Shown: positions 25,548 to 42,142 of the stretch, in pieces | Position numbering within the stretch: the first letter of the stretch is position 1 | How the letters are laid out: each line of letters opens with the position of its first letter | Source: Eubacteriales bacterium | GTDB lineage: Bacteria > Bacillota > Clostridia > Lachnospirales > Lachnospiraceae | NCBI GenBank assembly: GCA_030524175.1 | Contig: JAUNHC010000002.1 | Coordinates: 124,001 to 188,000 of the forward strand | Length of the DNA: 64,000 nt | Direction: 5' to 3' | Program-made: the position numbers and the translations under genes | Notes under the pieces: model-generated | Database searches by the model: none | What the model was told of the DNA's origin: nothing | The model's input: the letters and a program-made list of their open reading frames with translations, nothing else

Positions 25548-25587
25548 GTAAAAGGTGCAGAAAATTTCTCTTCCGCGCCTTTACGAA
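25548..25587 (-). promoter_or_regulatory. amt leader: AAAGGC hexaloop hairpin overlapping a terminator
   Basis: Read on the minus strand: TTCGT (25587-25583), loop AAAGGC (25582-25577), GCGGAA (25576-25571), a 5-bp stem with two G-U pairs. Loop plus 3' arm also pair with the segment ending near 25549 to give a second hairpin of about 14 bp (one C-A mismatch) followed by TTTTAC. This is the weakest of the five leaders: its terminator has a short T run and no clear -35 box is visible. Confidence 0.6.
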
Positions 25588-25650
25588 TTAAATATATATG
25601 ATGTACGGGACAGAAGATATTTTCGCCCAGGCATCATAAATATATGTAAA

Positions 25651-25735
25651 ACAGGAGATATCTGCATCGTGTGATTAATGGATGAGGAAATCGATAATGA
25701 ATTATGAAGTAGAGTTCATAAAAGATATCCCCTGT
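25651..25735 (-). terminator. possible long-loop terminator of glnN
   Basis: Arms 25651-25663 and 25723-25735 pair at 12 of 13 positions with a 59-base loop; on the minus strand the second arm is followed by TTTTAC. It lies just after the glnN stop. Confidence 0.4.
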
Positions 25736-25752
25736 ATTTACCTTATGAAATT

Positions 25753-27852
25753 TTAAATGGAGAACAAAAGCTTATCGTAAGTGGGGTAAGGAAGCAATGT
25801 CTCCGGAAGAAGAGCTTCAGCCTCGTCTGCCGCTTTTCTTAAGGACTCCATGTCAGCAAGGACAGTGGCCTGATATGCCTTTGAAGATTCAAGTATATCG
25901 TCATAGGATTGTGCTTTGGAGGTATCTTTTTTTAAGGTTTGGATGGCCTCAGTCATTGCGTCCTGGAGTTCTGTGAGTTTTTTCAGGAGTGCAGCTTCGC
26001 TTGCTATGGAGATATCTGCCACAACAGCTTTTTTAAGTCTGGCAGTGTTTGCCACCTGCTCCATATAGGTGATCATGCAGGGAAGCACATCCTTCTGTAC
26101 CATTTCTGCCATGGTGTTGGATTCAATATTTATTGTCTTGGCGTAGTTTTCCAGCCAAATTTCATAGCGGGAATGAAGCTCTCCTTTTGTAAAAATCTTA
26201 TGTTCAGTGAGCAATGCCACGTTTTTTTCAGATGTAAACATAGGCAGAGCATCAGGGGTGGTCTTTAAGTTGTAAAGGCCGCGTTTTTCTGCTTCCTCCA
26301 CCCACTCGTCCGTATAACCGTTTCCATTGAAGATGATCCGTTTATGCTCTGAAATTGTATTTTTCAGCAGCTTATGGACAGCCGTTTCCATGTCTTCAGG
26401 GGCCACATTTTCCAGCTGTTGGGAAAATTCCCGCAGCGACTGGGCAACAGCAGTGTTAAGTACAATATTAGGGTTGGCAACAGAGGCTGCGGAACCCAGC
26501 ATACGGAATTCAAATTTATTTCCGGTAAATGCAAAAGGTGAGGTACGGTTTCTGTCAGTATTGTCCTTGACAAAATGGGGCAGTACCTTTGCACCGATAT
26601 CCATCTGTATGGCATTTTGGCCGTTGAAATACTTATCATTTTCAATTGCCTTCAAAATTTCTGTCAGTTCATCCCCAAGGAAGATGGACACAATGGCCGG
26701 GGGCGCTTCATTGGCGCCGAGACGATGGTCATTTCCCGGGCTTGCCACAGAGATTCTAAGCAGGTCCGCATAATTGTCAACCGCCTTGATGACCGCTGTG
26801 AGAAATACAAGGAACTGGGTATTCTCTGCCGGGGTTTTGCCCGGATCCAGAAGATTGCAGCCTCCGTCGGTGATCATGGACCAGTTGTTGTGCTTGCCGC
26901 TTCCATTGATCCCTTCAAAAGGTTTTTCATGGAGAAGACAGACCAATCCGTGCTTATCAGCGACCTTTTTCATAATCTCCATAGTGAGCTGGTTGTGGTC
27001 AACCGCCACGTTTGTAGTGTCAAATACAGGAGCCAGTTCGTGCTGGGCCGGAGCCACTTCATTATGCTTAGTTTTTGCCGGAATTCCTAATTTCCACAGT
27101 TCCTCGTCCAACTCGTGCATGTAAGCAGAAATTCTGGGTTTCAAAGCACCGAAATAATGGTCTTCCATTTCCTGTCCTTTGGGAGCCGGAGCACCGATCA
27201 AGGTACGTCCGCAGAAGATTAAATCCTTTCTCTGGTTATACAGTTCTTTATCTACAAGGAAGTATTCCTGCTCAGGTCCTACTGTGGTGGTGACATGCTT
27301 TACATCCTTATTTCCAAGGAGATGAAGCATATGTACGGCTTCTCTGTTCAGTGTTTCCATGGATCGGAGAAGAGGTGTTTTTTTGTCAAGAGCTTCTCCG
27401 CTGTAAGAACAGAAGGCGGTAGGGATATAAAGGGTTCCGTCCTTGATGAAAGCCGGGGAGGTAGGGTCCCAGGCAGTGTATCCTCTGGCCTCGAAGGTGG
27501 CGCGCAGGCCTCCCGACGGAAAGCTGGATGCATCAGGTTCCCCTTTTACAAGTTCCTTGCCGGAAAAATCCATGATCACCTGCCCGTCACCGGTTGGTGA
27601 GATGAAGCTGTCATGCTTTTCAGCAGTAACGTTTGTCATGGGCTGGAACCAGTGGGTGTAATGAGTTGCGCCGTTTTCAATGGCCCATTCTTTCATGGCT
27701 ACAGCCACAGAATTGGCTACGTCCAGCTCTAAATGTGTTTCGTTCTGGATTGTTTTTTTCAGCGCTTTGTACATATCTTTCGGCAATTTACTCCGCATGA
27801 TCTTGTCGTTAAAAACAAGACTTCCATAAAGTTCAGGAATGTTTTGTGCCAT
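25753..27852 (-). CDS. glnN: glutamine synthetase type III
   Basis: 699-residue GS-III, a dodecameric ATP-dependent enzyme making glutamine from glutamate and ammonium. Length and motifs fit the family: FPSGGLRATFEARGYTAWDP near residue 110, TVGPEQEYFLVD (about 195), KHNEVAPAQHELAPVFDTTNVAVDHNQL (split: KHNEVAPAQHELAPVF, about 260) and GSGKHNNWSM (about 317). A second synthetase (type I) lies at 40052-41377. It is transcribed away from purF, and both genes have almost the same hairpin/terminator leader. Monocistronic, ending before amt on the same strand. Confidence 0.96.
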   Translation of the reverse strand: MAQNIPELYGSLVFNDKIMRSKLPKDMYKALKKTIQNETHLELDVANSVAVAMKEWAIENGATHYTHWFQPMTNVTAEKHDSFISPTGDGQVIMDFSGKELVKGEPDASSFPSGGLRATFEARGYTAWDPTSPAFIKDGTLYIPTAFCSYSGEALDKKTPLLRSMETLNREAVHMLHLLGNKDVKHVTTTVGPEQEYFLVDKELYNQRKDLIFCGRTLIGAPAPKGQEMEDHYFGALKPRISAYMHELDEELWKLGIPAKTKHNEVAPAQHELAPVFDTTNVAVDHNQLTMEIMKKVADKHGLVCLLHEKPFEGINGSGKHNNWSMITDGGCNLLDPGKTPAENTQFLVFLTAVIKAVDNYADLLRISVASPGNDHRLGANEAPPAIVSIFLGDELTEILKAIENDKYFNGQNAIQMDIGAKVLPHFVKDNTDRNRTSPFAFTGNKFEFRMLGSAASVANPNIVLNTAVAQSLREFSQQLENVAPEDMETAVHKLLKNTISEHKRIIFNGNGYTDEWVEEAEKRGLYNLKTTPDALPMFTSEKNVALLTEHKIFTKGELHSRYEIWLENYAKTINIESNTMAEMVQKDVLPCMITYMEQVANTARLKKAVVADISIASEAALLKKLTELQDAMTEAIQTLKKDTSKAQSYDDILESSKAYQATVLADMESLRKAADEAEALLPETLLPYPTYDKLLFSI

Positions 27853-27916
27853 ATAGGTACGCTCCTTTCATTCTTTCCATTTCCTTTTTCTATTTGAATA
27901 TGTGTGAAAGAAAAAC

Positions 27917-27994
27917 AAAAAAAGCGCCTTGGAGATGACTCCAAAGCGCCTTTGCTTATGTGCTGTAGTATACACGAAAAAATAGGAATGTCAA
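27917..27994 (-). promoter_or_regulatory. glnN promoter and AAAGGC hairpin/terminator leader
   Basis: Minus strand: TTGACA (27994-27989), 16-base spacer, TATACT (27972-27967). RNA should start near 27960. Within three bases comes AAGC-AAAGGC-GCTT (27957-27944), a 4-bp stem with hexaloop. The loop and its 3' arm are also the 5' arm of a 15-bp terminator (27953-27918, two G-U pairs, loop TCAT) followed by T7. The two structures cannot coexist. Confidence 0.85.
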
Positions 27995-28038
27995 TGATTT
28001 TTTCAAAAAAAATCATAAAAAAATTTCGCTGGTTTGGG

Positions 28039-28117
28039 TTGACAATTCTGTGTCTTCTATTATAATCTGGATGTAAGCAAAGGCGCTTCGGATATGTCCG
28101 GGGCGCCTCTTTTTTTA
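28039..28117 (+). promoter_or_regulatory. purF promoter and AAAGGC hairpin/terminator leader
   Basis: TTGACA 28039-28044, 16-base spacer, TATAAT 28061-28066; RNA start near 28072. AAGC (28075-28078), loop AAAGGC (28079-28084), GCTT (28085-28088). Terminator: 28081-28092 pairs with 28097-28108 (12 bp, two G-U pairs, loop TATG), then T7. Shares TAAGCAAAGGCGCTT with the divergent glnN leader. The remaining 85 bases to the start codon show nothing further. Confidence 0.87.
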
Positions 28118-28204
28118 TGTTTTTTACTTTGAAAAATATAGTTGCAGTAACAGCTCAGACCTGACTGAACTGCTGCTGTTTGCAATAAGAATGGAGGAAA
28201 TTTA

Positions 28205-29626
28205 ATGGCAGAAATAAAAGAAGAATGCGGGGTATTCGGTATTTATAATCTGGATGGAGGAAATGTGGTGCCGTCCATCTATTACGGCCTCACATCCCTG
28301 CAGCACAGGGGACAGGAATCATGCGGTCTGGCAGTTTCCCGTACAGATGGAGAGAGGGGAAATATACAGTTTCATAAAAATCTGGGTCTTGTGAGCGAAG
28401 TGCTGCGGGAGGATACTATTCATAGTATGGATGGGGATATCGGTATTGGTCATGTCCGCTATTCCACAACTGGAGCAACGGTAGCTGAGAATGCCCAGCC
28501 CCTTGTCCTTTCCTACGTGAAGGGGACGCTGGCATTGGCTCACAATGGAAATCTTATTAACACTGGGCAGCTAAAATGGGAATTGATACAAAACGGAGCT
28601 ATTTTTCATACCACCACTGACTCAGAGGTGATTGCCTTCCATATAGCAAGAGAACGGGTCCATTCCAAAACAGTGGAGGAGGCCATTGGAAAGACTGTCA
28701 GGAAAATCAAGGGGGCCTATGGCCTGGTGATCATGAGTCCCAGAAAGCTCATTGGTGTCCGGGATCCCCTGGGTCTGAAGCCCTTATGCCTGGGAAAAAG
28801 GGACAATACATATGTGTTGGCATCAGAAAGCTGTGCTCTCACCTCTGTTGGGGCAGAATTTGTCAGAGATATCGAACCGGGAGAAATCATAACCATTACA
28901 AAGGAAGGATTGAAATCAGATAAAACCTTATCAACGGGAAAACATGCCCTATGTGTGTTTGAATATATTTATTTTGCAAGGCTTGACAGCACTATGGACG
29001 GAGTAAATATATATGATGCCAGAATCCGCGGGGGAAAATCACTTGCAAAGTCTTACCCTGTAGAGGCTGATCTGGTCACGGGAGTGCCAGAGTCAGGTAT
29101 CCCGGCGGCAAAAGGTTATTCCGAGGAATCCGGCATTCCTTTCGGCCTTGCTTTTTATAAAAACAGCTATATCGGAAGAACTTTTATAAAACCCACCCAG
29201 AAGGAGAGAGAATCCAGTGTCCATCTGAAACTGAATGTTCTGCAGCCGGCAGTAAAAGGAAAACGGATCATACTTGTGGATGATTCTATAGTCCGGGGCA
29301 CAACAATTGCCAACTTGATTCATATGCTGAAAGAAGCAGGGGCAAAAGAGGTGCATGTGCGCATCAGCTCGCCGCCATTTCTCTATCCCTGCTATTTCGG
29401 AACAGATGTCCCTTCCAATGACCAGCTCATTGCCGCCAGCTACAGTTCAGAGGAAATCTGCGCTATGATAGGGGCAGACTCTCTAGGGTATATGAAAATA
29501 GACTATCTGGAAGGCATGGCAGGAGGACTGCCCTTGTGCAAAGCCTGTTTTGACGGAAAATATCCCATGGATATCCCAGAAGAAGGTAACCATTCAGTAC
29601 CTTGCGGGATATGGCCTGCTGAATAG
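28205..29626 (+). CDS. purF: amidophosphoribosyltransferase
   Basis: 473-residue enzyme for the first step of purine synthesis, moving the amide of glutamine to PRPP. The short propeptide (MAEIKEE) is followed by the N-terminal nucleophile cysteine in CGVFGIY (residue 8). The PRPP loop VDDSIVRGTTI is near residue 358. Cysteines in PCYFGTD and GLPLCKACFDGKYP fit the 4Fe-4S, oxygen-sensitive form. It is apart from other purine genes and instead divergent from glnN, with a leader of the nitrogen type, so control seems to follow glutamine supply. No purine riboswitch is seen. Confidence 0.96.
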   Translation: MAEIKEECGVFGIYNLDGGNVVPSIYYGLTSLQHRGQESCGLAVSRTDGERGNIQFHKNLGLVSEVLREDTIHSMDGDIGIGHVRYSTTGATVAENAQPLVLSYVKGTLALAHNGNLINTGQLKWELIQNGAIFHTTTDSEVIAFHIARERVHSKTVEEAIGKTVRKIKGAYGLVIMSPRKLIGVRDPLGLKPLCLGKRDNTYVLASESCALTSVGAEFVRDIEPGEIITITKEGLKSDKTLSTGKHALCVFEYIYFARLDSTMDGVNIYDARIRGGKSLAKSYPVEADLVTGVPESGIPAAKGYSEESGIPFGLAFYKNSYIGRTFIKPTQKERESSVHLKLNVLQPAVKGKRIILVDDSIVRGTTIANLIHMLKEAGAKEVHVRISSPPFLYPCYFGTDVPSNDQLIAASYSSEEICAMIGADSLGYMKIDYLEGMAGGLPLCKACFDGKYPMDIPEEGNHSVPCGIWPAE

Positions 29627-29756
29627 TTACAGAAGAAGTTACAAAATGAGGATGAAAATCATAAAAAATATGAAATCAATCCCATAATATCGCGTTAAAG
29701 CGTGTATGCAAAAAAGGAAAAATATAACAAAGCACCTTTAAAGATAATAGGTGTAA

Positions 29757-29969
29757 TTGTATAAAATGATGAATTGTTTAAATTTTATCAAAAAAAGAAA
29801 CAAAAATCCGGGCCTTGACAAATGGAAAAATGTGGAACATAATGTGAGCATCCAAGGAACAAGTGTTTATCTCATTAAAAATATTGTCTCAGTCAGGCAA
29901 AGGCAAAAATTTGAAAGAGTAAGCCGGCACCTCATTGAGCTATTAAGAAAGGATGAGTTTTATGTCTGA
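29757..29969 (+). CDS. small basic hypothetical protein before the HPr-like gene
   Basis: Open frame of up to 70 residues; start unclear (TTG at 29757, or ATG at 29766 giving 67 residues, after AGGTG). Lys/Arg/Asn-rich, with KNIVSVRQRQKFERVSRHLIELLRK as a likely helix. Its end overlaps the start of the HPr-like gene by eight bases, which suggests translational coupling. No family recognised; it could be spurious. Confidence 0.4.
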   Translation: MYKMMNCLNFIKKRNKNPGLDKWKNVEHNVSIQGTSVYLIKNIVSVRQRQKFERVSRHLIELLRKDEFYV

Positions 29970-30186
29970 AAAAATTAAATTAAACGCAGCCGAGGATGTT
30001 AAGGAGTTTGTAACAGCAGCTAGCAAGTGCGATTTTGATATTGATATATGTTACAACAGGATTATGGTTGATGCTAAATCTATCCTTGGAATCCTCAGCA
30101 TGGATTTGTCAAGAATCCTGACAGTGAATTGTCACGGTGAAAGCAGAGAGTTTGACAGAACTTTGAAGAAGTTTGCTGCAGCTTGA
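29962..30186 (+). CDS. HPr-like protein lacking the active histidine
   Basis: 74-residue protein with the HPr fold outline. The segment around HPr Ser46 is kept (MVDAKSILGILSMDLS, about residues 36-51), but the N-terminal GIHARPA loop that carries His15 is missing: the frame goes directly from KLNAAEDVKEF to the TAASK helix. So it cannot act as a sugar phosphotransferase carrier; like Crh it may serve only through the Ser46-like site, which is inference. The start at 29962 is preferred because AAGG at 29948-29952 is at the right distance; the ATG at 29953 abuts it. A strong terminator follows. Confidence 0.75.
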   Translation: MSEKIKLNAAEDVKEFVTAASKCDFDIDICYNRIMVDAKSILGILSMDLSRILTVNCHGESREFDRTLKKFAAA

Positions 30187-30212
30187 TCAAGACAATTTAC
30201 TACTGAACTGGT

Positions 30213-30287
30213 AAAAAACAGAGCCTTTTGTGGAATGACGGAATTTCGTGACCTTATGATATCCACAGAAGGGGCTGTTTTTTTGTG
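30213..30287 (+). terminator. terminator of the HPr-like gene
   Basis: Arms 30213-30234 and 30262-30283 pair at about 20 of 22 positions (A6 to T7) with a two-base internal mismatch and a 27-base loop. Confidence 0.88.
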
Positions 30288-30529
30288 TATCTTGGGAAAA
30301 GCCAGATTTTTGTTGTGATGGACATACTGGCATGGTATACTATAAATATATTGACAGATATGAACGAGAAATACTTAGTATTGTTCATACAAAAGGCCGG
30401 AAGAGAATTCAGGAGGGTTACATATGAATAGAAAATCTATTGCCACGGAAATTAATGTGAATACTTGACAGGCCATAGTCAAGATAAGATATGTACTGTC
30501 ACAATACTTAGATGAGGAGGATAAACAAT
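30288..30529 (+). other. gap with a 14-codon open frame (30424-30468)
   Basis: ATG at 30424 after a strong CAGGAGGG site opens a 14-residue frame, MNRKSIATEINVNT, ending at 30468. It may be a leader peptide for the small membrane protein, or the remnant of a longer gene. No terminator/antiterminator pair is visible behind it. Confidence 0.35.
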
Positions 30530-30730
30530 ATGAAGAAAACTACTGTGAACACTATAGTAAAAATCATACTTTGCTATGTAGTATGCTTTATCTTTTATCT
30601 GATTTACTGCTTTACTAGTAAGCAGCCCCTTGATATTTCCTGGAAGGGAGAACTGATCATCCTGGCAGGTACAATTATTCTTTACCTGGCTGAAAGCGCC
30701 TGGAAAAAGCGAAAGAACAGAAATACATAG
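30530..30730 (+). CDS. small membrane protein, two segments
   Basis: 66 residues from the ATG at 30530, which follows AGGAGG; the ATG at 30512 lies before that site. Two hydrophobic stretches (IILCYVVCFIFYLIYCF and LIILAGTIILYLAES) joined by a short polar loop, with a basic tail KKRKNRNT. No family recognised. Confidence 0.6.
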   Translation: MKKTTVNTIVKIILCYVVCFIFYLIYCFTSKQPLDISWKGELIILAGTIILYLAESAWKKRKNRNT

Positions 30731-30739
30731 GAATTAAAA

Positions 30740-30784
30740 AGGGGCAGTGAAACCAATTAAAATTCTTGGTTTCACTGCCTTTAT
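30740..30784. terminator. bidirectional terminator
   Basis: Perfect 14-bp stem GGCAGTGAAACCAA (30743-30756) with 30766-30779, A-rich on the left and TTTA on the right, between convergent genes. Confidence 0.8.
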
Positions 30785-30835
30785 GGTGTCAAAGCGTCAG
30801 AATACTCTTTGTATTACCTGCTCCCGGTTTTAACT

Positions 30836-31804
30836 TCATTTACCCGCAGCAGGATTTGTGCCGCATCCGCGGTGACAGCAGCATGGATTGCATCCACAGC
30901 GTGGACAGCAGTGCCGGCACGGCGGAACAGGTGATCCGCAGGGAGGGGTAACTACTGGAAAGGTGGTTGCAGCCGCATAGGCGCTGGGGGTGCCTGCCAC
31001 ACCGTTGACAATGGCTGACACCTTGTAATAATAGGTGGTATCGGGACTTAATCCTGTGTCGCTGAAGGATGGATCGGATGTTGTACCCACGTACTGGTAG
31101 GTTCCGTCCGGTGTGGTGCTGCGGTACACTGCATAGGCGGTGGCATTTGGTACTGTATTCCACGTTGTGTTGATCTGTGTCTGGCTTACCGGAGTTGCCA
31201 GTACGTTGGTGGGCATGGGAATGTCCGCTTCTGTGGCAGCGGATGCAATATTGCTAAGTGCACCTTCTGTTTCACCTGCTACGGCTGCCACCCGGTAATA
31301 ATATAAGGTACCTGGTGTCAGGCCTGCATCGGTGAATGACGGCGAACCAGCCAGGCCGGCCAGTGTAAACGGGCCGGAGTCCGTGGTACTGCGGTACACA
31401 TTGTACCGGGTTGCGCCAGCTACTGGGTCCCAGGTTGTATTGATCTGTGTGGGGCCTGCGGCTGTGGCTGTGAGATTCTGGGGCGCGTCAGGTGCAGCGG
31501 CAGTGGTGGCGCTGACAGGTGCCGACAGAGGCCCATCGCCGTCTGTATCATATGCTGACAGTTGATAAAAATAGGTGGTATTAGGGGTTAAGTCCATATC
31601 GGTAAACGCTGTTGCAGGGGTGCTGCCAACCTGTGCGTATGTGCCGCTTTCTGCGGTACTGCGGAACACATGATAGCCGGCTGCACCTGCTGCCGCCTCC
31701 CACGTGATCTGGATGTTGGATGCATCCACTGCGTTGGCGGTGACATTTATGGGCGTAGTTGTAACAGCTGTAATACTAACATTCATGTTTTGCTGATTAT
31801 TCAT
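30836..31804 (-). CDS. three fibronectin type III domains with cysteine-rich tail
   Basis: 322 residues from the ATG at 31804, which has AAAGGAGG six bases before it; a farther upstream ATG at 31849 lacks such a site. Three FN3 domains of about 90 residues follow each other (about residues 12-100, 101-190, 191-280), each with the pattern ITW...YxVYRST...Y-Y-V-A. The tail holds about ten cysteines in 27 residues (PPCRHCCPRCGCNPCCCHRGCG). There is no signal peptide, membrane segment or wall anchor. That combination recalls self-assembling coat proteins (for example of spores) more than secreted glycan-binding FN3 proteins, but this is inference. Higher GC than neighbours. Confidence 0.8.
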   Translation of the reverse strand: MNNQQNMNVSITAVTTTPINVTANAVDASNIQITWEAAAGAAGYHVFRSTAESGTYAQVGSTPATAFTDMDLTPNTTYFYQLSAYDTDGDGPLSAPVSATTAAAPDAPQNLTATAAGPTQINTTWDPVAGATRYNVYRSTTDSGPFTLAGLAGSPSFTDAGLTPGTLYYYRVAAVAGETEGALSNIASAATEADIPMPTNVLATPVSQTQINTTWNTVPNATAYAVYRSTTPDGTYQYVGTTSDPSFSDTGLSPDTTYYYKVSAIVNGVAGTPSAYAAATTFPVVTPPCGSPVPPCRHCCPRCGCNPCCCHRGCGTNPAAGK

Positions 31805-31925
31805 AATAGTCCTCCTTTCGTAAGGACGAGACAAAGTGTCACTGTTCACTTTGTACCAGTAATACGCTTCGTGTTGTACAGTAACGACAAAGTCTCAATA
31901 CCAGTATATGCCTCCACAAAAAATG
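31805..31925. other. intergenic region upstream of the FN3 gene
   Basis: ACAAAGTG (31831-31838) and CACTTTGT (31847-31854) form an 8-base inverted repeat in the leader of the FN3 gene. The promoter of that gene should lie to its right, but I see no clear consensus. Confidence 0.4.
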
Positions 31926-32055
31926 TTGACAAACAAAAAAAAATAGTATATAGTAAACCATATTTTTAAGAAAACATACTACCTGACAAAGGCGTCAGAA
32001 GCAGACTCCGGAGGAAGCATCATTCCCCGGCACCCCTGCTTTTGACGCCTTTTTC
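31926..32055 (+). promoter_or_regulatory. pyrG promoter and AAAGGC hairpin/terminator leader
   Basis: TTGACA 31926-31931, 17-base spacer, TATAGT 31949-31954; RNA start near 31961. CTGAC (31983-31987), loop AAAGGC (31988-31993), GTCAG (31994-31998) form a 5-bp hexaloop hairpin. The loop and 3' arm continue as the 5' arm of a 17-base stem (31988-32004 with about 32036-32053, one mismatch) ending in T5. Here about 22 bases precede the hairpin, more than in the glnN, purF and glnA leaders. Confidence 0.85.
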
Positions 32056-32069
32056 TTGTCAGGGAATTT

Positions 32070-32087
32070 AAGCGGACTTGTCCACTT
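32070..32087. promoter_or_regulatory. second copy of the GGAC-TT-GTCC palindrome
   Basis: AAGCGGAC-TT-GTCCACTT, 17 of 18 bases equal to the palindrome at 4185-4202. It lies between the pyrG leader terminator and the pyrG ribosome site. Confidence 0.4.
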
Positions 32088-32124
32088 TGTTTTGTATATG
32101 ACCCAATGGAGGAGGAAATCAGAA

Positions 32125-33732
32125 ATGGCAGTGAAATATGTATTTGTCACAGGCGGAGTGGTATCCGGCCTGGGAAAAGGGATTACTGCGGCATCTCTTG
32201 GAAGGCTTCTGAAAGCAAGAGGCTGCCGGGTGACCATGCAGAAATTTGACCCTTATATCAATATAGATCCGGGAACTATGAATCCCATTCAGCACGGAGA
32301 GGTGTTTGTCACAGAAGACGGAACAGAGACTGATTTGGATTTGGGACATTATGAACGTTTTATTGATGAAAATCTGGACAAAAATTCCAATGTGACAACA
32401 GGAAAAATTTACTGGTCTGTTCTCCAGAAGGAGCGGCACGGGGATTTCGGCGGAGGGACTGTGCAGGTGATCCCTCATATCACAAATGAGATCAAGAACA
32501 GATTTTACCGCGGAAAGTCGCCGGAGGAAGACAGGATCGCCATCATCGAGGTTGGCGGTACAGTGGGAGATATTGAAAGTCAGCCGTTTCTGGAGTCCAT
32601 CAGGCAGTTTCAGCATGAGGTGGGACGAGAAAACGCAGTTCTGGTTCATGTGACCTTAATACCGTATCTTAAGGCTTCCGGTGAGATGAAAACCAAACCC
32701 ACCCAGGCAAGTGTGAAGGAACTTCAGGGGATGGGGATCCAGCCGGATGTGCTGGTGTGCCGAAGCGAGTATCCTGTATCGGAAGAGCTGAAGGAGAAAA
32801 TTGCATTGTTCTGTAATGTCCCTGTCAGCCATGTACTGCAGAATCTGGATGTAGAATATTTATACGAAGCTCCTCTGGCCATGGAAAGAGAACGGCTGGC
32901 AGATGTAGTCCTGGAAAGTCTCAGACTGGAAAACCGTAAGCCTGATTTAAGTGAATGGGAGACTATGGTAAACAATCTGAGGAACCCGGACAAGACGGTC
33001 AGGATTGCAGTGGTAGGAAAATACACTCAGCTTCATGATGCTTATTTAAGTGTTGCGGAGGCTTTGAAGCACGGCGGGATTTCCTGTAAGGCCAAGGTGG
33101 AGCTGCTCTGGGTAGATTCTGAAGAGCTTGAGGAGAAGACCCTTGACCAGCAGTTATACAGTGCAGATGGGATACTGGTGCCCGGAGGCTTTGGAAACAG
33201 GGGCACGGAAGGCATGATCCTGGCTGCCTGGTATGCAAGGACGCATAAAATACCATACCTGGGGATCTGCCTGGGAATGCAGATGGCAATAGTGGAATAT
33301 GCCCGTCATGTGCTTGGATATGAGGATGCCAACAGCATGGAACTGGAACCAGATACAAAGCATCCGGTCATTGCCCTTATGCCGGACCAGGAGGACATAG
33401 AAGATTTAGGCGGTACACTCAGGCTTGGAAGTTACCCCTGTGTGCTGTCTGAGAATTCCATATCTTACACTTTATTCGGCGAGAAAGAGATCAGGGAGAG
33501 ACACAGACACCGCTATGAAGTAAACAACGAATTCCGGGAAGCACTTCAGGAAAAAGGGATGGCTATTGTAGGTACTTCTCCTGATGGCCATATTGTGGAG
33601 ATGGTGGAAGTGCCCGGACATCCGTTTTTTGTGGGAACCCAGGGGCACCCTGAATTTAAGTCAAGACCTAACCGGGCACATCCATTGTTCCGCGGGTTTG
33701 TCCAGGCAGCAGTGGAAAAGATAAACAGATAG
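32125..33732 (+). CDS. pyrG: CTP synthase
   Basis: 535-residue enzyme making CTP from UTP, ATP and glutamine. The start at 32125 follows GGAGGAGG and gives the usual N-terminus ([19 protein letters not shown]). The synthase domain is residues 1-265; the glutamine amidotransferase domain has its nucleophile in [10 protein letters not shown] (about residue 382) and the His/Glu pair in GHPEFKSRP near residue 510. It is followed by gltB after 15 bases, so pyrG, gltB and gltD form one operon; a glutamine user is thus tied to glutamate synthase. Its leader is of the nitrogen type, not the C-rich reiterative pyrG attenuator known from Bacillus. Confidence 0.96.
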
Positions 33733-33747
33733 GAAAGGATGAGGAAC

Positions 33748-36700
33748 ATGGCAGAGATGAAAAGAGAACAAAAAGGACTTTATTGTCCGGAATTTGAACA
33801 TGATAACTGCGGTATCGGTGCGGTGGTCAACATCAAAGGAAAGAAGAGCCATGACACAGTGGCAAATGCTCTCAAGATTGTAGAGAATCTGGAGCACCGG
33901 GCAGGAAAAGATGCTGAGGGAAAAACAGGCGACGGTGTAGGGATCCTTCTGCAGATATCCCACAAATTTTTCAAAAAAGCCTGTAAGAAGGAAGGAATTG
34001 AGCTTGGACAGGAAAGAGAATACGGTATCGGCCAGTTCTTTTTCCCTCAGCATGAGATCAAGCGTGCCCAGGCAAAAAAGATGTTTGAGATCATCCTGAA
34101 AAAAGAAGGGCTTCAGCTTTTAGGCTGGCGTACAGTTCCTGTGTTTCCCCAGGTGCTGGGAAATAAGGCAAAGGAGTGTATGCCCTGCATCATGCAGGCA
34201 TTTATCCGCAAGCCGGACGAAATGGAGAAAGGCCTTGATTTCGACAGGATATTATATATTGTACGGAGGGAATTCGAACAGAGCAATGACAATACTTATG
34301 TAGTTTCCATGAGCAGCCGTACCATTGTATATAAAGGAATGTTTCTGGTAGGACAGCTCCGTACCTTTTTTGAGGATTTGCAGAGTCCTGATTATGAGTC
34401 AGCCATCGCACTGGTGCATTCACGTTTCAGTACCAACACCAATCCAAGCTGGGAACGGGCTCATCCCAACCGATTTATGGTACATAACGGAGAAATCAAT
34501 ACCATACGGGGAAATGCAGACAAGATGCTTGCAAGAGAAGAAAACATGGAGTCGCCTTATTTAAAAGGTGAGCTTCACAAAGTACTTCCCGTAGTAAACC
34601 GCAATGGATCTGACTCCGCAATGCTGGATAATACCCTGGAATTTCTTGTCATGAGCGGTATGGAGCTGCCCTTAGCTGTAATGATAACCATTCCGGAGCC
34701 GTGGGCAAACAATGACACCATTTCCCAGGAAAAGCGTGATTTTTACCAGTATTATGCCACTATGATGGAGCCATGGGACGGTCCGGCATCCATTCTGTTC
34801 TCAGATGGTGATGTGATGGGGGCAGTCCTTGACAGGAACGGACTTCGGCCGTCCCGGTACTATATCACCTCAGACGGTTATATGATACTTTCCTCAGAAG
34901 TGGGCGTCCTTCCTGTTCCGGAGGAGAAAATAATACTAAAGGAACGCCTTCATCCCGGGAAAATGCTTTTGGTGGATACGGTGCAGGGAAAGGTGATGGA
35001 TGACGATGAACTGAAGGAAAGCTATGCGAAAAAGCAGCCATACGGAGAGTGGCTTGACAGCAATCTTCTTCAGCTTAAAGATATTAAAATCCCAAACAAA
35101 AAACCGCAGGAATATGGGGAGGAACAACGTTCCAGACTGCAGAAAGCATTTGGCTACACTTATGAGCAGTACCGTACTTCTATCCGGAATATGGCATTAA
35201 ACGGCAGTGAAAGTATAGGTGCCATGGGGGTGGATACGCCGCTGGCAGTGCTTTCCACACAGCATAGACCGCTGTTTGACTATTTTAAGCAGCTTTTTGC
35301 CCAGGTGACGAACCCGCCTATTGATGCTATCCGTGAAGAAATTGTCACCTGTACCAGTGTGTATGTGGGAAAAGACGGAAACCTGCTGGAGCAAAAGCCG
35401 GAGAACTGTCAGGTACTTAAGATCAATAATCCCATTCTCACCAATACGGATATGATGAAAATCAAAAATATGAAGCAGGAAGGCTTCCAGGTAGCAGTTG
35501 TTTCTACCTTATATTATAAAAGTACGAAACTGGAGAGGGCAATTGACAGGCTGTTTGTGGAGGTTGACAAGGCATTTCGCGAGGGCGCCAATATCCTGGT
35601 GCTTTCTGACCGGGGTGTGGATGAAAACCATATGCCCATTCCATCGCTGCTGGCGGTATCCGCGGTGCATCAGCATCTTGTAAAAACGAAGAAAAGCACT
35701 TCGCTGGCTATTATCCTGGAGTCAGGGGAACCCCGGGAGGTCCATCATTTTGCAGCATTGCTGGGATACGGGGCAAGCGCAGTCAATCCCTATCTTGCCC
35801 TGGAGACGATCCGTGAGCTGATTGACAATCATATGCTGGATAAGGACTATTATGCGGCAGTGGATGATTACAACCATGCAGTGATCAGCGGTATTGTGAA
35901 GATTGCATCCAAAATGGGAATATCAACCATCCAGTCCTATCAGGGTTCCCAGATTTTTGAGGCGATCGGGGTGTCCCGGGAAGTGATTGAAAAATATTTT
36001 ACAGGGACAGTGAGCCGGGTGGGAGGTATTACTCTGGAGGATATTGAGGATAATGTGGAGCGTCTCCATTCAGAAGCCTTTGACCCGCTGGGACTGAGTA
36101 CAGACTTGACACTGGACAGTGTAGGCGCCCATAAAATGAGAAGCCAGGGGGAAGAACACCGTTATAATCCACAGACTATCCATCTTCTCCAGGAATCCAC
36201 CAGAAGAGGGAGCTATGAGCTTTTTAAAGATTATACAAAAATGGTGGACGAAGAAAACCATGGCAGTCTCAGAGGCCTGCTTGAGTTTCGCTTTGCAGAA
36301 AATCCTGTTCCTCTGGATGAGGTGGAGAGTGTGGAGGAGATTGTGAGGCGGTTCAAAACAGGAGCCATGTCTTACGGCTCTATTTCCCAGGAAGCACATG
36401 AAACACTGGCCATTGCAATGAACCATCTTCATGGGAAATCAAACACAGGCGAAGGCGGTGAGAGTGAGGAGAGACTTGACTCTCAGGGGACGGAAAATGA
36501 CCGCTGTTCTGCTATCAAGCAGGTGGCAAGCGGCCGCTTCGGTGTCACCAGCCGGTACCTTGTATCAGCAAAAGAAATCCAGATCAAGATGGCTCAGGGG
36601 GCCAAGCCCGGTGAGGGCGGACATCTTCCGGGGAAAAAGGTATATCCCTGGGTAGCCAGGACACGTCATTCCACCCCGGGGGTAAGCTTGATCTCCCCTC

Positions 36701-38295
36701 CCCCTCATCATGATATTTATTCCATAGAAGATTTGGCACAGCTTATATATGATTTGAAAAATGCAAATAAATATGCGGACATTTCTGTGAAGCTTGTGTC
36801 TGAAGCCGGTGTGGGAACTGTGGCGGCAGGTGTGGCGAAGGCCGGAGCACAGACAATTCTTATATCCGGTTATGACGGGGGAACAGGAGCTGCCCCCAGA
36901 AGCTCCATCCACAATGCAGGGCTGCCCTGGGAACTGGGACTGGCAGAAACTCACCAGACACTTCTGATGAACGGCCTGAGAAACCGTGTGCGGATCGAGA
37001 CGGACGGCAAGCTCATGAGCGGACGGGATGTGGCTTTTGCGGCACTTTTAGGCGCGGAAGAGTTTGGCTTTGCCACGGCTCCTCTTGTGACTATGGGCTG
37101 TGTGATGATGAGGGTGTGCAACCTGGATACCTGTCCTGTGGGCGTGGCTACCCAGAATCCGGAGCTTCGTAAGAGATTCCGGGGAAAACCGGAATATGTG
37201 GAAAATTTTATGCGTTTTATCGCTCAGGAATTAAGGGAATACATGGCAAAGCTGGGTGTACGCACCATTGATGAGATGGTGGGCCGTACAGATCTTCTTG
37301 TCCCGTCTCCTCATATTGAAGAGCCTCATAAGAGTAAGGTGGATTTAAGTGCTGTTTTGGAAAATCCCTTTGCCGGAAAGGGACAGAAGGTCACCTTTGA
37401 CCCGAAATGGGAATACAACTTCCAACTGGAAAAAACCTTGGATGAAAAGGTTCTTTTAAAGAAATGTACAAATGCTGTGATAAAAGGCGAAAAGCTGGAG
37501 CTTTCCCTGGAAGTGACAAACACAGACCGTTCCTTCGGCACCATCCTGGGTTCAGAGATCACAAGGAATCATAAAGAGGGACTTCCGGAAGACAGCATTA
37601 TGATTCACTGTAATGGTGCCGGAGGACAGAGCTTCGGGGCGTTTATACCAAAAGGTCTGACTCTGGAGCTTACCGGTGACAGTAACGATTATTTCGGAAA
37701 AGGTCTTTCAGGCGGGAAACTGATCGTGCGTGTTCCCGAGAAGGCAGCCTACAAAGCCGAAGAGAATATCATTGTGGGAAACGTGGCACTTTACGGAGCC
37801 ACAAGCGGTATGGCATTTATTAACGGCGTGGCAGGAGAACGCTTTGCTGTCCGCAATTCCGGCGTCTATGTAGTGGTGGAAGGCGTTGGGGAGCACGGCT
37901 GTGAGTATATGACAGGCGGCCGTGTGGTAGTTCTTGGAAAAACAGGGAAAAACTTTGCCGCTGGTATGAGCGGAGGTGTTGCTTATGTGCTGGACCTTGA
38001 AAATGAGTTGTACAAAAACGTAAATAAAGCTATGATTTCCATCGAAAAGGTGGAAAGCAAATACGACAGAAAAGAGCTTCGGGGCCTTATAGAAGCCCAC
38101 GTAAAGGCCACAGGCTCCAGGCTGGGGGCAAAGATTGCAGCAGAATTTGACGCTTACCTTCCCCACTTTAAAAAGCTGATCCCTAATGAGTATAAGCGTA
38201 TGGTAACTTTAAGCGCAAAGCTTGAGGAAAAAGGCCTGAACAGCCAGGAGGCACAGATGGAAGCCTTCTATGAAAGCGTTGGTGCAAAACATTAA
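33748..38295 (+). CDS. gltB: glutamate synthase, large subunit
   Basis: 1515-residue subunit that takes ammonia from glutamine and makes glutamate with 2-oxoglutarate. Start at 33748 preferred over 33739 for ribosome-site spacing. A short propeptide ends before the nucleophile cysteine in DNCGIGAVV (residue 21). Domains in order: type II amidotransferase (about 21-420), central domain (about 450-760), FMN/3Fe-4S synthase domain (about 800-1200, with GEGGESEERL, AQGAKPGEGGHLPG and CNLDTCPVGVATQ) and the GXGXG beta-helix domain (about 1250-1480). Full length for the family. The gltD gene begins 37 bases later. Confidence 0.96.
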   Translation: MAEMKREQKGLYCPEFEHDNCGIGAVVNIKGKKSHDTVANALKIVENLEHRAGKDAEGKTGDGVGILLQISHKFFKKACKKEGIELGQEREYGIGQFFFPQHEIKRAQAKKMFEIILKKEGLQLLGWRTVPVFPQVLGNKAKECMPCIMQAFIRKPDEMEKGLDFDRILYIVRREFEQSNDNTYVVSMSSRTIVYKGMFLVGQLRTFFEDLQSPDYESAIALVHSRFSTNTNPSWERAHPNRFMVHNGEINTIRGNADKMLAREENMESPYLKGELHKVLPVVNRNGSDSAMLDNTLEFLVMSGMELPLAVMITIPEPWANNDTISQEKRDFYQYYATMMEPWDGPASILFSDGDVMGAVLDRNGLRPSRYYITSDGYMILSSEVGVLPVPEEKIILKERLHPGKMLLVDTVQGKVMDDDELKESYAKKQPYGEWLDSNLLQLKDIKIPNKKPQEYGEEQRSRLQKAFGYTYEQYRTSIRNMALNGSESIGAMGVDTPLAVLSTQHRPLFDYFKQLFAQVTNPPIDAIREEIVTCTSVYVGKDGNLLEQKPENCQVLKINNPILTNTDMMKIKNMKQEGFQVAVVSTLYYKSTKLERAIDRLFVEVDKAFREGANILVLSDRGVDENHMPIPSLLAVSAVHQHLVKTKKSTSLAIILESGEPREVHHFAALLGYGASAVNPYLALETIRELIDNHMLDKDYYAAVDDYNHAVISGIVKIASKMGISTIQSYQGSQIFEAIGVSREVIEKYFTGTVSRVGGITLEDIEDNVERLHSEAFDPLGLSTDLTLDSVGAHKMRSQGEEHRYNPQTIHLLQESTRRGSYELFKDYTKMVDEENHGSLRGLLEFRFAENPVPLDEVESVEEIVRRFKTGAMSYGSISQEAHETLAIAMNHLHGKSNTGEGGESEERLDSQGTENDRCSAIKQVASGRFGVTSRYLVSAKEIQIKMAQGAKPGEGGHLPGKKVYPWVARTRHSTPGVSLISPPPHHDIYSIEDLAQLIYDLKNANKYADISVKLVSEAGVGTVAAGVAKAGAQTILISGYDGGTGAAPRSSIHNAGLPWELGLAETHQTLLMNGLRNRVRIETDGKLMSGRDVAFAALLGAEEFGFATAPLVTMGCVMMRVCNLDTCPVGVATQNPELRKRFRGKPEYVENFMRFIAQELREYMAKLGVRTIDEMVGRTDLLVPSPHIEEPHKSKVDLSAVLENPFAGKGQKVTFDPKWEYNFQLEKTLDEKVLLKKCTNAVIKGEKLELSLEVTNTDRSFGTILGSEITRNHKEGLPEDSIMIHCNGAGGQSFGAFIPKGLTLELTGDSNDYFGKGLSGGKLIVRVPEKAAYKAEENIIVGNVALYGATSGMAFINGVAGERFAVRNSGVYVVVEGVGEHGCEYMTGGRVVVLGKTGKNFAAGMSGGVAYVLDLENELYKNVNKAMISIEKVESKYDRKELRGLIEAHVKATGSRLGAKIAAEFDAYLPHFKKLIPNEYKRMVTLSAKLEEKGLNSQEAQMEAFYESVGAKH

Positions 38296-38332
38296 GAAGA
38301 TAGGCGCAGTGAATGCGCAACAGGAGGAAATC

Positions 38333-39817
38333 ATGGGAAAACCAACAGGATTTTTAGATTATAAGAGAGAGTCGGCAAAGGTTCAGCCGGCAAAAGTCCG
38401 CATTGCTCATTTCAATGAATTCCGGATTCCGTTAAAGAAGGAGAAACAGAAATTACAGGGAGCGCGCTGCATGGCCTGTGGCGTACCCTTCTGCCAGTCA
38501 GGCATGATGCTTGGAGGTATGGCTTCCGGCTGTCCCCTTCATAATCTGGTTCCGGAGACAAACGATCTGGTGTATACGGGAAACTGGAAGCAGGCATATT
38601 TAAGGCTGAGTAAGACACACTGTTTTCCGGAGTTTACTTCCAGGGTTTGTCCGGCTCTCTGCGAGGCTGCTTGTACCTGCAATCTGGACGGAGAACCTGT
38701 AGCAACGAAGGAGAATGAGCGGGCGATCATTGAGACTGCATTTGAGCAGGGCTGGGTACAGCCAAATCCCCCAAAAGTAAGGACAGGAAAGACAATCGCT
38801 GTCATTGGAAGCGGCCCGGCAGGTCTGGCAGCAGCCCAGCAACTGAATCACAGGGGGCATAATGTGACAGTGTTTGAGAGAAGTGACCGTATTGGCGGGC
38901 TGCTGCGCTACGGTATTCCCAATATGAAGCTGGAGAAATCCATTATTGACAGAAGAGTGAAGATCATGGAAGCCGAAGGCGTAACCTTTGTTACCAATAC
39001 CAATGTAGGTACAGATATCAAGGCAGAGGAACTTCTGAAAAAGTTTGACAGAGTGGTTCTGGCCTGCGGAGCCTCTAACCCCAGAGATATCAAGGTGCCG
39101 GGAAGAGAGGCGAAGGGAATTTACTTCGCCGTGGATTTTCTGAAACAAGTGACAAAGACTCTTCAGGACTCTGATTTTGGGAAGGTACCCTACGAGCTGG
39201 CAAAGGGTAAGAATGTCCTTGTTATTGGCGGCGGTGATACGGGAAATGACTGTGTGGGAACAGTGATCCGCCTGGGTGCAAAGTCTGTAACCCAGCTTGA
39301 GATGATGCCCAAACCGCCTGCTGAACGGGCAGAGGATAATCCATGGCCCCAGTGGCCAAAGGTTTTGAAAACCGACTATGGCCAGGAGGAAGCCATTGCT
39401 GTGTTCGGACATGACCCAAGAGTTTACCAGACAACAGTGACTGAATTTATACAAGATAAAAAAGGAAATGTCTGCAAAGCAAAGACAGTGAAGCTGAAAA
39501 GTGAAAAAGACCCTAAAACAGGCAGAGTGCAGATGGTTCCGGTGGAAGGAAGCGAAGAAGTGATTTTGGCTGATTTAGTCTTGATCGCCGCAGGCTTTCT
39601 GGGAAGCGAGAAATATGTAACCGATGCATTTAAAGTAGCTGTCAACGGGCGGACAAATGTAGAGACAAAACAAGAGGGATATGCAACAACGGTACCAGGA
39701 GTGTTTACTGCAGGTGACATGCACAGAGGCCAGTCATTGGTAGTGTGGGCGATCCGTGAGGGCAGGGAGGCTGCAAAGGCAGTAGACCAATCTCTTATGG
39801 GATATTCCAATTTATAG
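38333..39817 (+). CDS. gltD: glutamate synthase, small subunit
   Basis: 494-residue subunit that passes electrons from NAD(P)H through FAD and 4Fe-4S clusters to GltB. The start at 38333 follows CAGGAGG; the ATG at 38270 lies inside gltB. N-terminal cysteines for the clusters are in ARCMACGVPFCQSG, GCPLHN, CPALCEAACTC. The FAD loop is VIGSGPAGLAAAQQL (about 155), the NAD(P)H loop VIGGGDTGNDCVG (about 300). VPGVFTAGDMHRGQSLVVWAI near the end closes the FAD site. Third gene of the pyrG-gltB-gltD operon. Confidence 0.95.
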   Translation: MGKPTGFLDYKRESAKVQPAKVRIAHFNEFRIPLKKEKQKLQGARCMACGVPFCQSGMMLGGMASGCPLHNLVPETNDLVYTGNWKQAYLRLSKTHCFPEFTSRVCPALCEAACTCNLDGEPVATKENERAIIETAFEQGWVQPNPPKVRTGKTIAVIGSGPAGLAAAQQLNHRGHNVTVFERSDRIGGLLRYGIPNMKLEKSIIDRRVKIMEAEGVTFVTNTNVGTDIKAEELLKKFDRVVLACGASNPRDIKVPGREAKGIYFAVDFLKQVTKTLQDSDFGKVPYELAKGKNVLVIGGGDTGNDCVGTVIRLGAKSVTQLEMMPKPPAERAEDNPWPQWPKVLKTDYGQEEAIAVFGHDPRVYQTTVTEFIQDKKGNVCKAKTVKLKSEKDPKTGRVQMVPVEGSEEVILADLVLIAAGFLGSEKYVTDAFKVAVNGRTNVETKQEGYATTVPGVFTAGDMHRGQSLVVWAIREGREAAKAVDQSLMGYSNL

Positions 39818-39826
39818 AAAAAGGAG

Positions 39827-39914
39827 TTGACAAAGGGGTACCCTGTTGCTATAATACCTGCATGAACAAAGGCGTTCTTTTGAAAGGTAACTCTTCGAAA
39901 GTGCGCCATTTTTT
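39827..39914 (+). promoter_or_regulatory. glnA promoter and AAAGGC hairpin/terminator leader
   Basis: TTGACA 39827-39832, 17-base spacer, TATAAT 39850-39855, RNA start near 39862. GAAC (39864-39867), loop AAAGGC (39868-39873), GTTC (39874-39877). Terminator: GGCGTTCTTTTGAA (39871-39884) pairs with the segment ending GCGCC at 39907, followed by ATTTTTT (39908-39914). The next 137 bases to the start codon hold one more inverted repeat (TCCGTTTT/AAAACGGA, about 39938-39969) without a T run. Confidence 0.87.
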
Positions 39915-40051: not shown

Positions 40052-41377
40052 ATGGGGAATTATACCAGAGACGAAATTTTACAGATGGCGGAGGATGAAG
40101 ACGTAGAGTTCATCCGGCTGCAGTTTACCGACATGTTTGGTACGCTGAAGAATATTGCCATCACTGCCCGGGAACTTCCCAGGGCGTTGAATAACGAATA
40201 CATTGTGGACGGCTCTTTTATAGCCGGGATAGCCGGAGGGGAGATGGAGCCTGATATGTACCTCCATCCGGATCTGGATACCTTCAATATCCTTCCGTGG
40301 CGTCCCCAGCAGGGAAAGGTCGCCAGGCTGCTCTGTGATATTTACCGCCCTGACGGTACACCCTATGAGGGAAGCTGCCGGCAGCTGCTGAAAAATGTGG
40401 TGGAAGAGGCAGCGCAGGAGGGATATACCTGTTATATAGACCCAGAGTGTGAATTTTTCCTGTTCCACACGGACGACAACGGTATGCCTACCACAGTCAC
40501 ACATGAGAAAGCAGGATATCTGGATATCAGTCCTTTGGATTTAGGCGAAAATGCAAGGCGGGATATGGTACTTAATCTGGAGGATATGGGTATTGAGGTG
40601 GAATCCTCTCACCATGAGACAGCCCCGGCTCAGCACGAAATAGATTTTAAGTATGGCGAAGCAAAAAAAATGGCAGACTGTATTATGACCTTTAAAATGG
40701 CAGTACGTACCATTGCCAAACGTCATGGTCTGCACGCCACCTTTATGCCGAAGCCAAAAGCAGAGGCAAACGGTTCAGGCATGCACATTCATTTTTCTTT
40801 ATTTAAAAATGGGAGAAATATATTTGCAAATGCGGAAAATCCGGGAGAGTTAAGCGGGGAGGCATATTACTTTGTGGGCGGGCTTCTGGCGCACAGTAAG
40901 GAAATGGCCCTTATTACAAATCCTTTGGTGAATTCATATAAACGTCTTGTTCCGGGATATGAAGCACCCACGGAACTTACATGGACAGTAAACAATCAGA
41001 ATTCCCTGGTGAGAATACCAAACGCAAGAGGTGCGGAGACAAAAATAGAGTTAAGAAGCCCGGATGCGTCCTCTAATCCCTATCTTGTATTTGCTGTGTG
41101 TCTTGCAGCAGGGCTTGACGGTATCCGGAGAAAACTGTTTCCCACAAAGTCCTCTGACCGCTCACTCTCCCCGTCGGATCAGAAGGCTATGAATATTGAG
41201 AATCTTCCTGAAAATCTGAAAGAAGCCATTGGATTTTTCGAGGAAAGTACCTGGCTTAAGGATATCCTGGGCAAGGAATTCTGTGAAGAATACGCAGCAG
41301 CTAAAAAGAAAGAATGGCTCCGGTATACAAGACAGGTGACACAGTGGGAGCTGGAGGAATACCTTTATCGTATTTAG
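40052..41377 (+). CDS. glnA: glutamine synthetase type I (alpha-like)
   Basis: 441-residue GS-I. Active-site blocks: DPECEFFLF near residue 130, ETAPAQHEIDFKY (about 190), NGSGMHIHFSL (about 243) and GAETKIELRSPDASSNPYL (about 330). The C-terminal region reads MNIENLPENLKEAI and lacks the adenylylated tyrosine of GS-I-beta, so it is not of the GlnE-controlled type. The N-terminal beta-grasp carries RLQFTDMFGTLKNIAI. Followed after about 90 bases by the ANTAR regulator gene, probably on the same transcript. Two synthetases of different type in one block suggest division by nitrogen supply. Confidence 0.95.
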   Translation: MGNYTRDEILQMAEDEDVEFIRLQFTDMFGTLKNIAITARELPRALNNEYIVDGSFIAGIAGGEMEPDMYLHPDLDTFNILPWRPQQGKVARLLCDIYRPDGTPYEGSCRQLLKNVVEEAAQEGYTCYIDPECEFFLFHTDDNGMPTTVTHEKAGYLDISPLDLGENARRDMVLNLEDMGIEVESSHHETAPAQHEIDFKYGEAKKMADCIMTFKMAVRTIAKRHGLHATFMPKPKAEANGSGMHIHFSLFKNGRNIFANAENPGELSGEAYYFVGGLLAHSKEMALITNPLVNSYKRLVPGYEAPTELTWTVNNQNSLVRIPNARGAETKIELRSPDASSNPYLVFAVCLAAGLDGIRRKLFPTKSSDRSLSPSDQKAMNIENLPENLKEAIGFFEESTWLKDILGKEFCEEYAAAKKKEWLRYTRQVTQWELEEYLYRI

Positions 41378-42022: not shown

Positions 42023-42080
42023 GACTGTTACAGTAATTTAATAATTGTTTGGGATTACAACGGTGTAATCAAAATATCCA

Positions 42081-42124
42081 ATCCTGGCATACCTGGGCTT
42101 TTTCGGGTATGCCGGGATTTTTTT
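42081..42124 (+). terminator. terminator of the glnA-ANTAR operon
   Basis: Stem 42081-42093 with 42106-42118 (13 bp, one G-U pair), then T7. No AAAGGC loop, so it is outside the leader family described for the nitrogen genes. Confidence 0.85.
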
Positions 42125-42142
42125 GAAATGGAGGATGAGGAC

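Follow-up and report, generated by a model that had tools for sequence, protein, structure and literature searches.

Five leaders of glutamine and ammonium genes in a Blautia-like gut bacterium (genome of 5.95 Mb in 119 contigs, about 91% complete) are very probably RNA antiterminators of the ANTAR type, and it is likely that a single hexaloop hairpin suffices. The leaders lie in the stretch of 64,000 nucleotides analysed here (the window) and precede amt, glnN, purF, pyrG-gltB-gltD and glnA. The relevant features are listed below; bit scores marked R2 come from R2, a model of promoter plus hairpin built from 43 training sequences.

23779..25518, minus strand: amt, with a C-terminal P-II domain
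about 25549-25582, minus strand: imperfect amt terminator overlapping the hairpin, by folding
25571..25587, minus strand: amt leader hairpin UUCGU-AAAGGC-GCGGA(A)
25753..27852, minus strand: glnN, glutamine synthetase III
27920..27953, minus strand: glnN terminator, 15 pairs, using the loop and 3' arm of the hairpin
27944..27957, minus strand: glnN leader hairpin AAGC-AAAGGC-GCUU (R2 43.3 bits)
27967..27994, minus strand: predicted glnN promoter TTGACA-N16-TATACT
28039..28066, plus strand: predicted purF promoter TTGACA-N16-TATAAT
28075..28088, plus strand: purF leader hairpin AAGC-AAAGGC-GCUU (R2 41.3 bits)
28081..28108, plus strand: purF terminator, 12 pairs, followed by a T-run
28205..29626, plus strand: purF, amidophosphoribosyltransferase
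31926..31954, plus strand: predicted pyrG promoter TTGACA-N17-TATAGT
31983..31998, plus strand: pyrG-gltB-gltD leader hairpin CUGAC-AAAGGC-GUCAG, some 22 nt from the predicted RNA start
31988..32052, plus strand: pyrG terminator
32125..39817, plus strand: pyrG, gltB and gltD
39827..39855, plus strand: predicted glnA promoter TTGACA-N17-TATAAT, 12 of 12 consensus positions
39864..39877, plus strand: glnA leader hairpin GAAC-AAAGGC-GUUC, near predicted +2 (R2 58 bits)
39868..39914, plus strand: glnA terminator, imperfect stem and T-run
40052..41377, plus strand: glnA, type I glutamine synthetase
41468..42022, plus strand: ANTAR regulator P0001, 184 aa, pseudo-receiver plus ANTAR (PF03861 match)

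Hairpins and terminators in the window

The original prediction placed a hairpin with the loop AAAGGC in each of these leaders, and all five are present where it put them; its stems stand for four leaders, whereas that of amt is better drawn as UUCGU/GCGGA, two of its pairs being G-U. AAAGGC occurs 61 times in the window, and 5 of these occurrences, exactly the five leaders, are closed by 4 pairs or more, against a mean of 0.9 and a maximum of 5 such hexaloops in 200 dinucleotide-preserving shuffles. A strictly defined overlapping terminator is found at purF, pyrG and glnN (3 observed; shuffle mean 0.01, maximum 1), and AAAGGC is the sole hexaloop in the window that occurs with one more than once. 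The glnA and amt leaders fall outside this strict definition, and both fold into imperfect overlapping terminators. The bare 7-mer AAAGGCG shows no enrichment in the window (11 observed, 7.3 expected); the signal is the combination of hairpin, terminator and position rather than the 7-mer itself.

By folding, the loop and 3' arm of the hairpin double as the 5' arm of the terminator in all five leaders, as had been proposed. The minimum-energy fold is the terminator in each case, with segment energies of -17 to -42 kcal/mol, and the fold in which the hairpin is forced is 9 to 16 kcal/mol weaker. Because the hairpin thus lends its loop and 3' arm to a far stronger terminator, the default outcome should be to stop. 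Terminators so much more stable than the hairpin might also be taken as constitutive elements of short leaders, serving RNA stability or the production of small RNAs and involving no switching. This reading is very improbable, since central genes would then presumably be silenced, and a terminator alone should require neither a conserved hexaloop nor a covarying 5' stem.

The ANTAR protein

A PF03861 profile search of the genome returns a single ANTAR gene; glnA precedes it by 90 nt, and the gap holds nothing that resembles a terminator. The AlphaFold2 model of its product, a confident one (pLDDT 91.2, pTM 0.65), has RNA-bound EutV as its best fold match (TM 0.70). Of the residues by which EutV contacts RNA, Met172 has M as its equivalent in 40 of 40 homologues and Tyr164 has Y, F or H in 40 of 40; R142, K143 and K147 are not kept, the homologues having mostly Q, N and N in a register set by eye. 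The position of the phosphoacceptor Asp54 is occupied by G in 33 homologues, S in 5 and A in 2, and by Asp in none. With a receiver lacking the phosphoacceptor Asp, a protein or ligand switch is to be expected.

A receiver-like domain followed by ANTAR, encoded beside glnA, is the layout of NitR. Judged by domain layout and glnA adjacency, the protein is a NitR-type ANTAR regulator.

Conservation of the leaders among relatives

Conservation was assessed in 80 listed loci of at least 581 confirmed candidates, mostly from Blautia or other Lachnospiraceae. The ANTAR gene has glnA immediately upstream in 78 of these loci, and the remaining two have no glnA match. A predicted glnA promoter (TTGACA/TATAAT-like, 0-3 mismatches, within 450 nt) is found in 63 of the 77 listed leaders that are long enough, and 55 of the 63 have at most one mismatch in 12. 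A hexaloop hairpin of at least 4 pairs, whatever its loop, lies within 30 nt of the -10 box in 61 of the 63 listed promoter-bearing leaders, among which the commonest loops are AAGGGC (29) and AAAGGC (20), the next one reaching 10. For 11 of the 14 listed leaders without a promoter, gltD is directly upstream by coordinates. When looser promoter rules are applied to the listed loci and the window, AANGGY occurs within 45 nt of the -10 box in 58 of 78 glnA leaders, and 53 of these 58 have at least 4 pairs, the stem not being a search condition; across the 80 listed loci, true sites included, AANGGY has at least 4 pairs at 236 of 6478 occurrences (3.6%). The listed pyrG leaders carry an AANGGC/U hexaloop with at least 4 pairs and a T-run in 24 of 32 cases, and the hexaloop stands behind a promoter in 18 of 33.

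For glnN, amt and purF, 24 named genomes were considered. An AANGR hexaloop overlapping a terminator precedes glnN in 23 of 23 relatives; the test initially returned 16 of 23, missing AACGGC and AATGGC, and reached 23 once the terminator arm was allowed to start at loop position 4. The same arrangement precedes amt in 16 of the 20 relatives that bear the gene, with loops AAAGGC, AAAGGA, AAAGAC, AAAGAA, AAAGAT, AAAGGT and others (G4 was required in the search). For purF, an overlapping terminator accompanies the hexaloop in 6 of 24 relatives, and any AANGR hexaloop is found in 8 of 24, two of which look like chance; an automatic tally of 9 of 24 included chance loops and was set aside in favour of 6. 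The second glnN paralogue, a control of seven genes only, has the overlapping terminator in 0 of 7 and any AANGR hexaloop in 1 of 7. Hence, the hairpin is not missing before the same genes in relatives as far as glnA, glnN, amt and pyrG are concerned, and the original proposal is supported to the extent that one set of sites covers the genes for ammonium uptake, both glutamine synthetases and glutamate synthase, together with pyrG; purF is lineage-limited and was ruled out as a core member.

A count anchored on stems, with the loop left free, yielded 149 hairpins, 22 of which are the divergent glnN/purF site read on the opposite strand. The remaining 127 loops have A1 in 121 cases and G4 in 124, in agreement with the proposal of an ANTAR-type A1/G4 hexaloop; four have G1 in place of A1 and keep G4. 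Two glnA leaders (L104, L105) carry the G1 loops GAAGGC and GAGGGT, with stem and promoter kept. The stems covary between units and between species. The covariation among 51 hairpins is partly built in, because nearly all of them were picked for having at least 4 pairs, and the position-only (58 of 78) and stem-anchored (127) counts are less biased in this respect. Together with the competing folds, covariation supports a contest between hairpin and terminator at the RNA level.

The location of the sites at promoters and the AANGGC common to all of them could also be accounted for by a DNA operator, or by an effect of the initially transcribed sequence, with no RNA structure involved. We deem this highly improbable, given that the stems change together across units and species, as anticipated for an RNA structure rather than a DNA site, and that the distance from the -10 box to the loop varies (10-21 nt for glnA and 18-39 nt for pyrG, misplaced loops omitted) while the overlap with the terminator stays.

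A probable single hairpin at the predicted start of the transcript

Published ANTAR targets are dual hexaloops, as described in the excerpts available of PMC3369931, PMC8934654 and PMC8164766, and the main departure of the present leaders from them is geometric. In glnA (54 leaders), glnN (6), purF (3) and amt (1), the stem starts -2 to 9 nt from the predicted +1, with a median of about 2, and none of these 64 leaders has a P1-like A1/G4 hexaloop between the predicted +1 and the hairpin, a count made without a dual-hexaloop positive control. In glnA, glnN and purF the hairpin follows the predicted start by some 2 nt, which leaves no room for an upstream "recruitment" hairpin. The pyrG stem starts 7-27 nt from the predicted +1 (median 22, 18 leaders), and a P1-like hexaloop is present in 1 of the 18. 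These spacings omit the glnA leaders of L061, L065 and L109 and the pyrG leaders of L058 and L061, where the loop is off the orthologous site, and the glnA leader of L075, where the register is wrong. The leaders are not independent, many being from close relatives. For amt, no convincing sigma-70 promoter was found in the window (25590-25700, minus strand), and the amt promoters of relatives also score poorly; amt may therefore use another promoter type, and it can be called a single-hairpin leader only tentatively. The predicted promoters of glnA, glnN, purF and pyrG do not place transcription starts downstream of the hairpins.

Judged by predicted starts, two hairpins separated by a linker of 2-25 nt, as in dual-hexaloop targets in their 2012 and 2021 definitions, are thus found in 0 of 64 leaders and in 1 of 18 pyrG leaders, whereas the downstream hairpin overlapping an intrinsic terminator, the other hallmark of ANTAR targets, is found in the window, in 23 of 23 glnN leaders and in 16 of 20 amt leaders. 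The original prediction was right to recognize an ANTAR hexaloop, and the contrast between its single hairpin and the dual targets described went unnoticed.

In other clostridial families, a hexaloop site picked by eye is found in 14 of 20 ANTAR regions. Nine of the 14, from three families, abut the promoter, have no more than 8 nt before the hairpin and lack a P1; the remaining sites have long leaders, two of them with a P1-like hairpin. A further locus (L256) was also scored as promoter-abutting, but its promoter is not trusted. In another family (L249, L250, L253 and L256), leaders are mostly longer and the loops before glnA are AAUGAC, AACGAC and GAAGAC; they form another variant, which may include an upstream element.

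It might be argued that we are dealing with ordinary dual-hexaloop targets in which transcription starts further upstream and the upstream hairpin has been overlooked. This would conform to the targets described in excerpts of PMC3369931 and PMC8164766, and would be compatible with the 7-27 nt of room in pyrG leaders, one of which does hold a P1-like hexaloop, and with the P1-like hairpins at 2 of the 14 other-family sites, both with long leaders. We nevertheless regard it as unlikely. The predicted glnA promoters deviate from consensus at no more than 1 of 12 positions in 55 of the 77 listed leaders and adjoin the hairpin in nearly all of the 63 listed leaders that have one; no P1 was found in the predicted RNA of the 64 glnA, glnN, purF and amt leaders, and 9 of 14 other-family sites leave at most 8 nt upstream.

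Searches of whole genomes

A hairpin-only model (R1) gave nine matches at E<=10 in the genome of origin, comprising four window leaders (glnA, pyrG, glnN, purF), one plausible new leader and four that look like chance by eye; it is too short for specificity. With R2, glnA, glnN and purF rank as the top three in this genome, all three being in the training set. In 30 hand-picked ANTAR-bearing genomes of the family, R2 has 40 matches at E<=0.1, spread over 19 genomes. Thirty of the matched loci were examined. The hexaloop, closed by 4 pairs or more, is present in 27 of them, and in 26 a gene of the set follows within 450 nt: glnA in 16, glnN in 6 and amt in 4. Twenty-two of these 26 are not training sequences; 4 of the 30 loci are, and R2 is to that extent not independent of these genomes. 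Two of the loci examined (L198, L209) were rejected, as they carry GAACANNTGTTC-like boxes instead; the genes beside them are presumably lexA. A purF leader was likewise discarded (L189), its hairpin being present but the purF start lying 963 nt downstream. In one glnA leader matched by R2 (L196) the hairpin is absent.

R2 finds nothing at E<=0.1 in the other 11 of these 30 genomes, all of which bear an ANTAR gene; the system is thus common across the clade without being universal. In 20 glnA regions, from these 11 genomes and 9 others, three have an AA-loop hairpin of at least 4 pairs, two more have 3 pairs by eye and 15 have none; some of the hexaloop-free regions retain promoter and terminator. 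Two glnA leaders next to an ANTAR gene (L214 in G046 and L224 in G033) have a promoter and strong terminator-like sequence but no hexaloop that can be recognized. In another genome (G069) the ANTAR gene is present and the best R2 match lacks the hairpin.

Among genomes with a divergent ANTAR protein, the hairpin is found in 12 of the 20 best R2 matches read, before glnN (five), purF (one), a class-II glutamine amidotransferase gene (three) and, once each, genes for an asparagine synthase, a periplasmic binding protein and an aminotransferase, targets other than glnN and purF being the first long ORF downstream. A complete unit of promoter, hairpin and terminator is seen at those amidotransferase, synthase, aminotransferase and binding-protein genes (L147, L148, L155, L149, L170, L154).

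The ANTAR-less set comprises 14 of 16 genomes without a protein match, those that also lack PF03861 at E<=0.01. A hexaloop with at least 4 pairs occurs in 0 of the 9 best R2 matches read from these 14 genomes; two others have matches outside the nine, and three have none at E<=1. One match in an ANTAR-less genome (L175) has an AAAGGA loop with 3 pairs only. Absences in the genome search carry little weight, because in each genome the scoring covered 150 first-look candidates out of a pool of hundreds to thousands.

These results bear on whether the leaders might be attenuators governed by some other factor (a small ligand, another RNA-binding protein or nucleotide-dependent effects at the start site), with the ANTAR gene as a bystander. 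The 11 ANTAR-bearing genomes without an R2 match would fit such a scheme, but the conservation of A1 and G4 in the loop, the linkage of glnA to the ANTAR gene and the lack of a full hairpin in all nine ANTAR-less matches make it decidedly unlikely. No Rfam family fits the leaders (no match at the gathering threshold, and sub-threshold hits only, none convincing, when relaxed), and a hairpin of 14-18 nt is, on general grounds, small for an aptamer.

Relation to known systems and proposed mechanism

The original suggestion that the regulon may be undescribed was only partly right. Excerpts of PMC3369931 contain a 2012 prediction of ANTAR sites before genes for ammonium transporters, P-II and glutamate and glutamine synthases, and NitR of Clostridium saccharobutylicum (Stutz et al. 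2007) is cited in the part of PMC6316151 available as acting by antitermination, with GS/GOGAT induced on nitrogen limitation. An ANTAR antiterminator role has also been suggested in the GS-GOGAT cluster of C. thermocellum (excerpt of PMC4676874). Searches of the open-licence literature yielded no account of ANTAR antitermination by a single hexaloop, nor of the present regulon in Lachnospiraceae.

As with NitR, an ANTAR regulator is here linked to GS/GOGAT; unlike the NitR case, the set of sites extends to glnN, amt-PII, pyrG and sometimes purF, the sites being single hexaloops that abut the promoter. The leaders share with the EutV/eut, NasR/nasF and AmiR/ami systems, as portrayed in excerpts of PMC3369931 and PMC8934654, the A1/G4 hexaloop, the P2-like hairpin overlapping a terminator and the association with nitrogen genes, but no P1 was found and the hairpin is the first transcribed sequence. 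The regulator differs from EutV in having no phosphoacceptor and resembles AmiR in its pseudo-receiver and ANTAR architecture, AmiR being under the control of a partner protein (excerpt of PMC8934654). The regulons predicted in Desulfotomaculum and others likewise unite ammonium transporter, P-II and glutamate and glutamine synthases under one motif, yet they were found with a dual-hairpin model, and the excerpts of PMC3369931 mention neither purF nor pyrG. According to the available part of PMC8934654, EutV needs both hexaloops for antitermination and yet binds one at a time, and in 2022 the role of single-hexaloop sites was left to further work. The leaders described here are natural single-hexaloop candidates in many genomes, and the question raised by the EutV work is therefore directly testable. 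They should escape a model built to require two hairpins.

In the mechanism we propose, transcription would begin at a strong promoter, and the initial 18-20 nt or so of the transcript, or in pyrG a segment starting near nt 22, would fold into an A-A-N-G-G-C/U hairpin. The NitR-type ANTAR protein, which probably binds the leaders, would grip this hairpin via its loop until the polymerase clears the T-run, and read-through would turn on glnA-ANTAR, pyrG-gltBD, glnN and amt, as well as purF in some lineages. By analogy with the NitR work cited above, activation would take place on nitrogen limitation, and the neighbouring gene product, glutamine synthetase, is our guess as the leading candidate for the gate. 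We lean, with some reserve, towards extending this scheme across the Clostridia: one first-transcribed hexaloop would suffice, a non-phosphorylatable NitR-type ANTAR protein would capture the nascent RNA at promoter escape, and the regulon would centre on glutamine. The same extended reading would dispense with a recruitment hairpin, the protein possibly being pre-loaded near the polymerase and gated by glutamine synthetase, and would extend the regulon to the synthesis of pyrimidines, here and there of purines, and perhaps of Asn/Gln-tRNA. The leaders thus offer a concrete candidate for the switching of nitrogen assimilation in abundant gut Clostridia.

Further candidate sites

A candidate sixth site, again with an A1/G4 hexaloop, is found directly after the ANTAR gene, before the genes of a glutamine-using transamidation set.

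42053..42070, plus strand: candidate hairpin GAUUAC-AACGGU-GUAAUC before aspS(non-discriminating)-gatCAB (17.0 bits, E 0.19)

Together, the hairpin and aspS-gatC-gatA-gatB occupy window positions 42053-46718. In this genome hairpin and terminator (42080-42119) do not overlap. An AAAGGC or AACGGC hexaloop precedes aspS-gatCAB in 6 of 30 listed relatives, and the sequence of Blautia wexlerae (L049) suggests an overlap of hairpin and terminator at this site.

Elsewhere in the genome of origin, at C108:91510-91527 (minus strand), a promoter, a GAAGGC hairpin and a terminator precede the gene of a PPDK_N-domain protein (unit 91508-91564; L118/L125). The loop has G1 in place of A1, and the gene is, to go by this leader, a possible member of the regulon on the carbon side.
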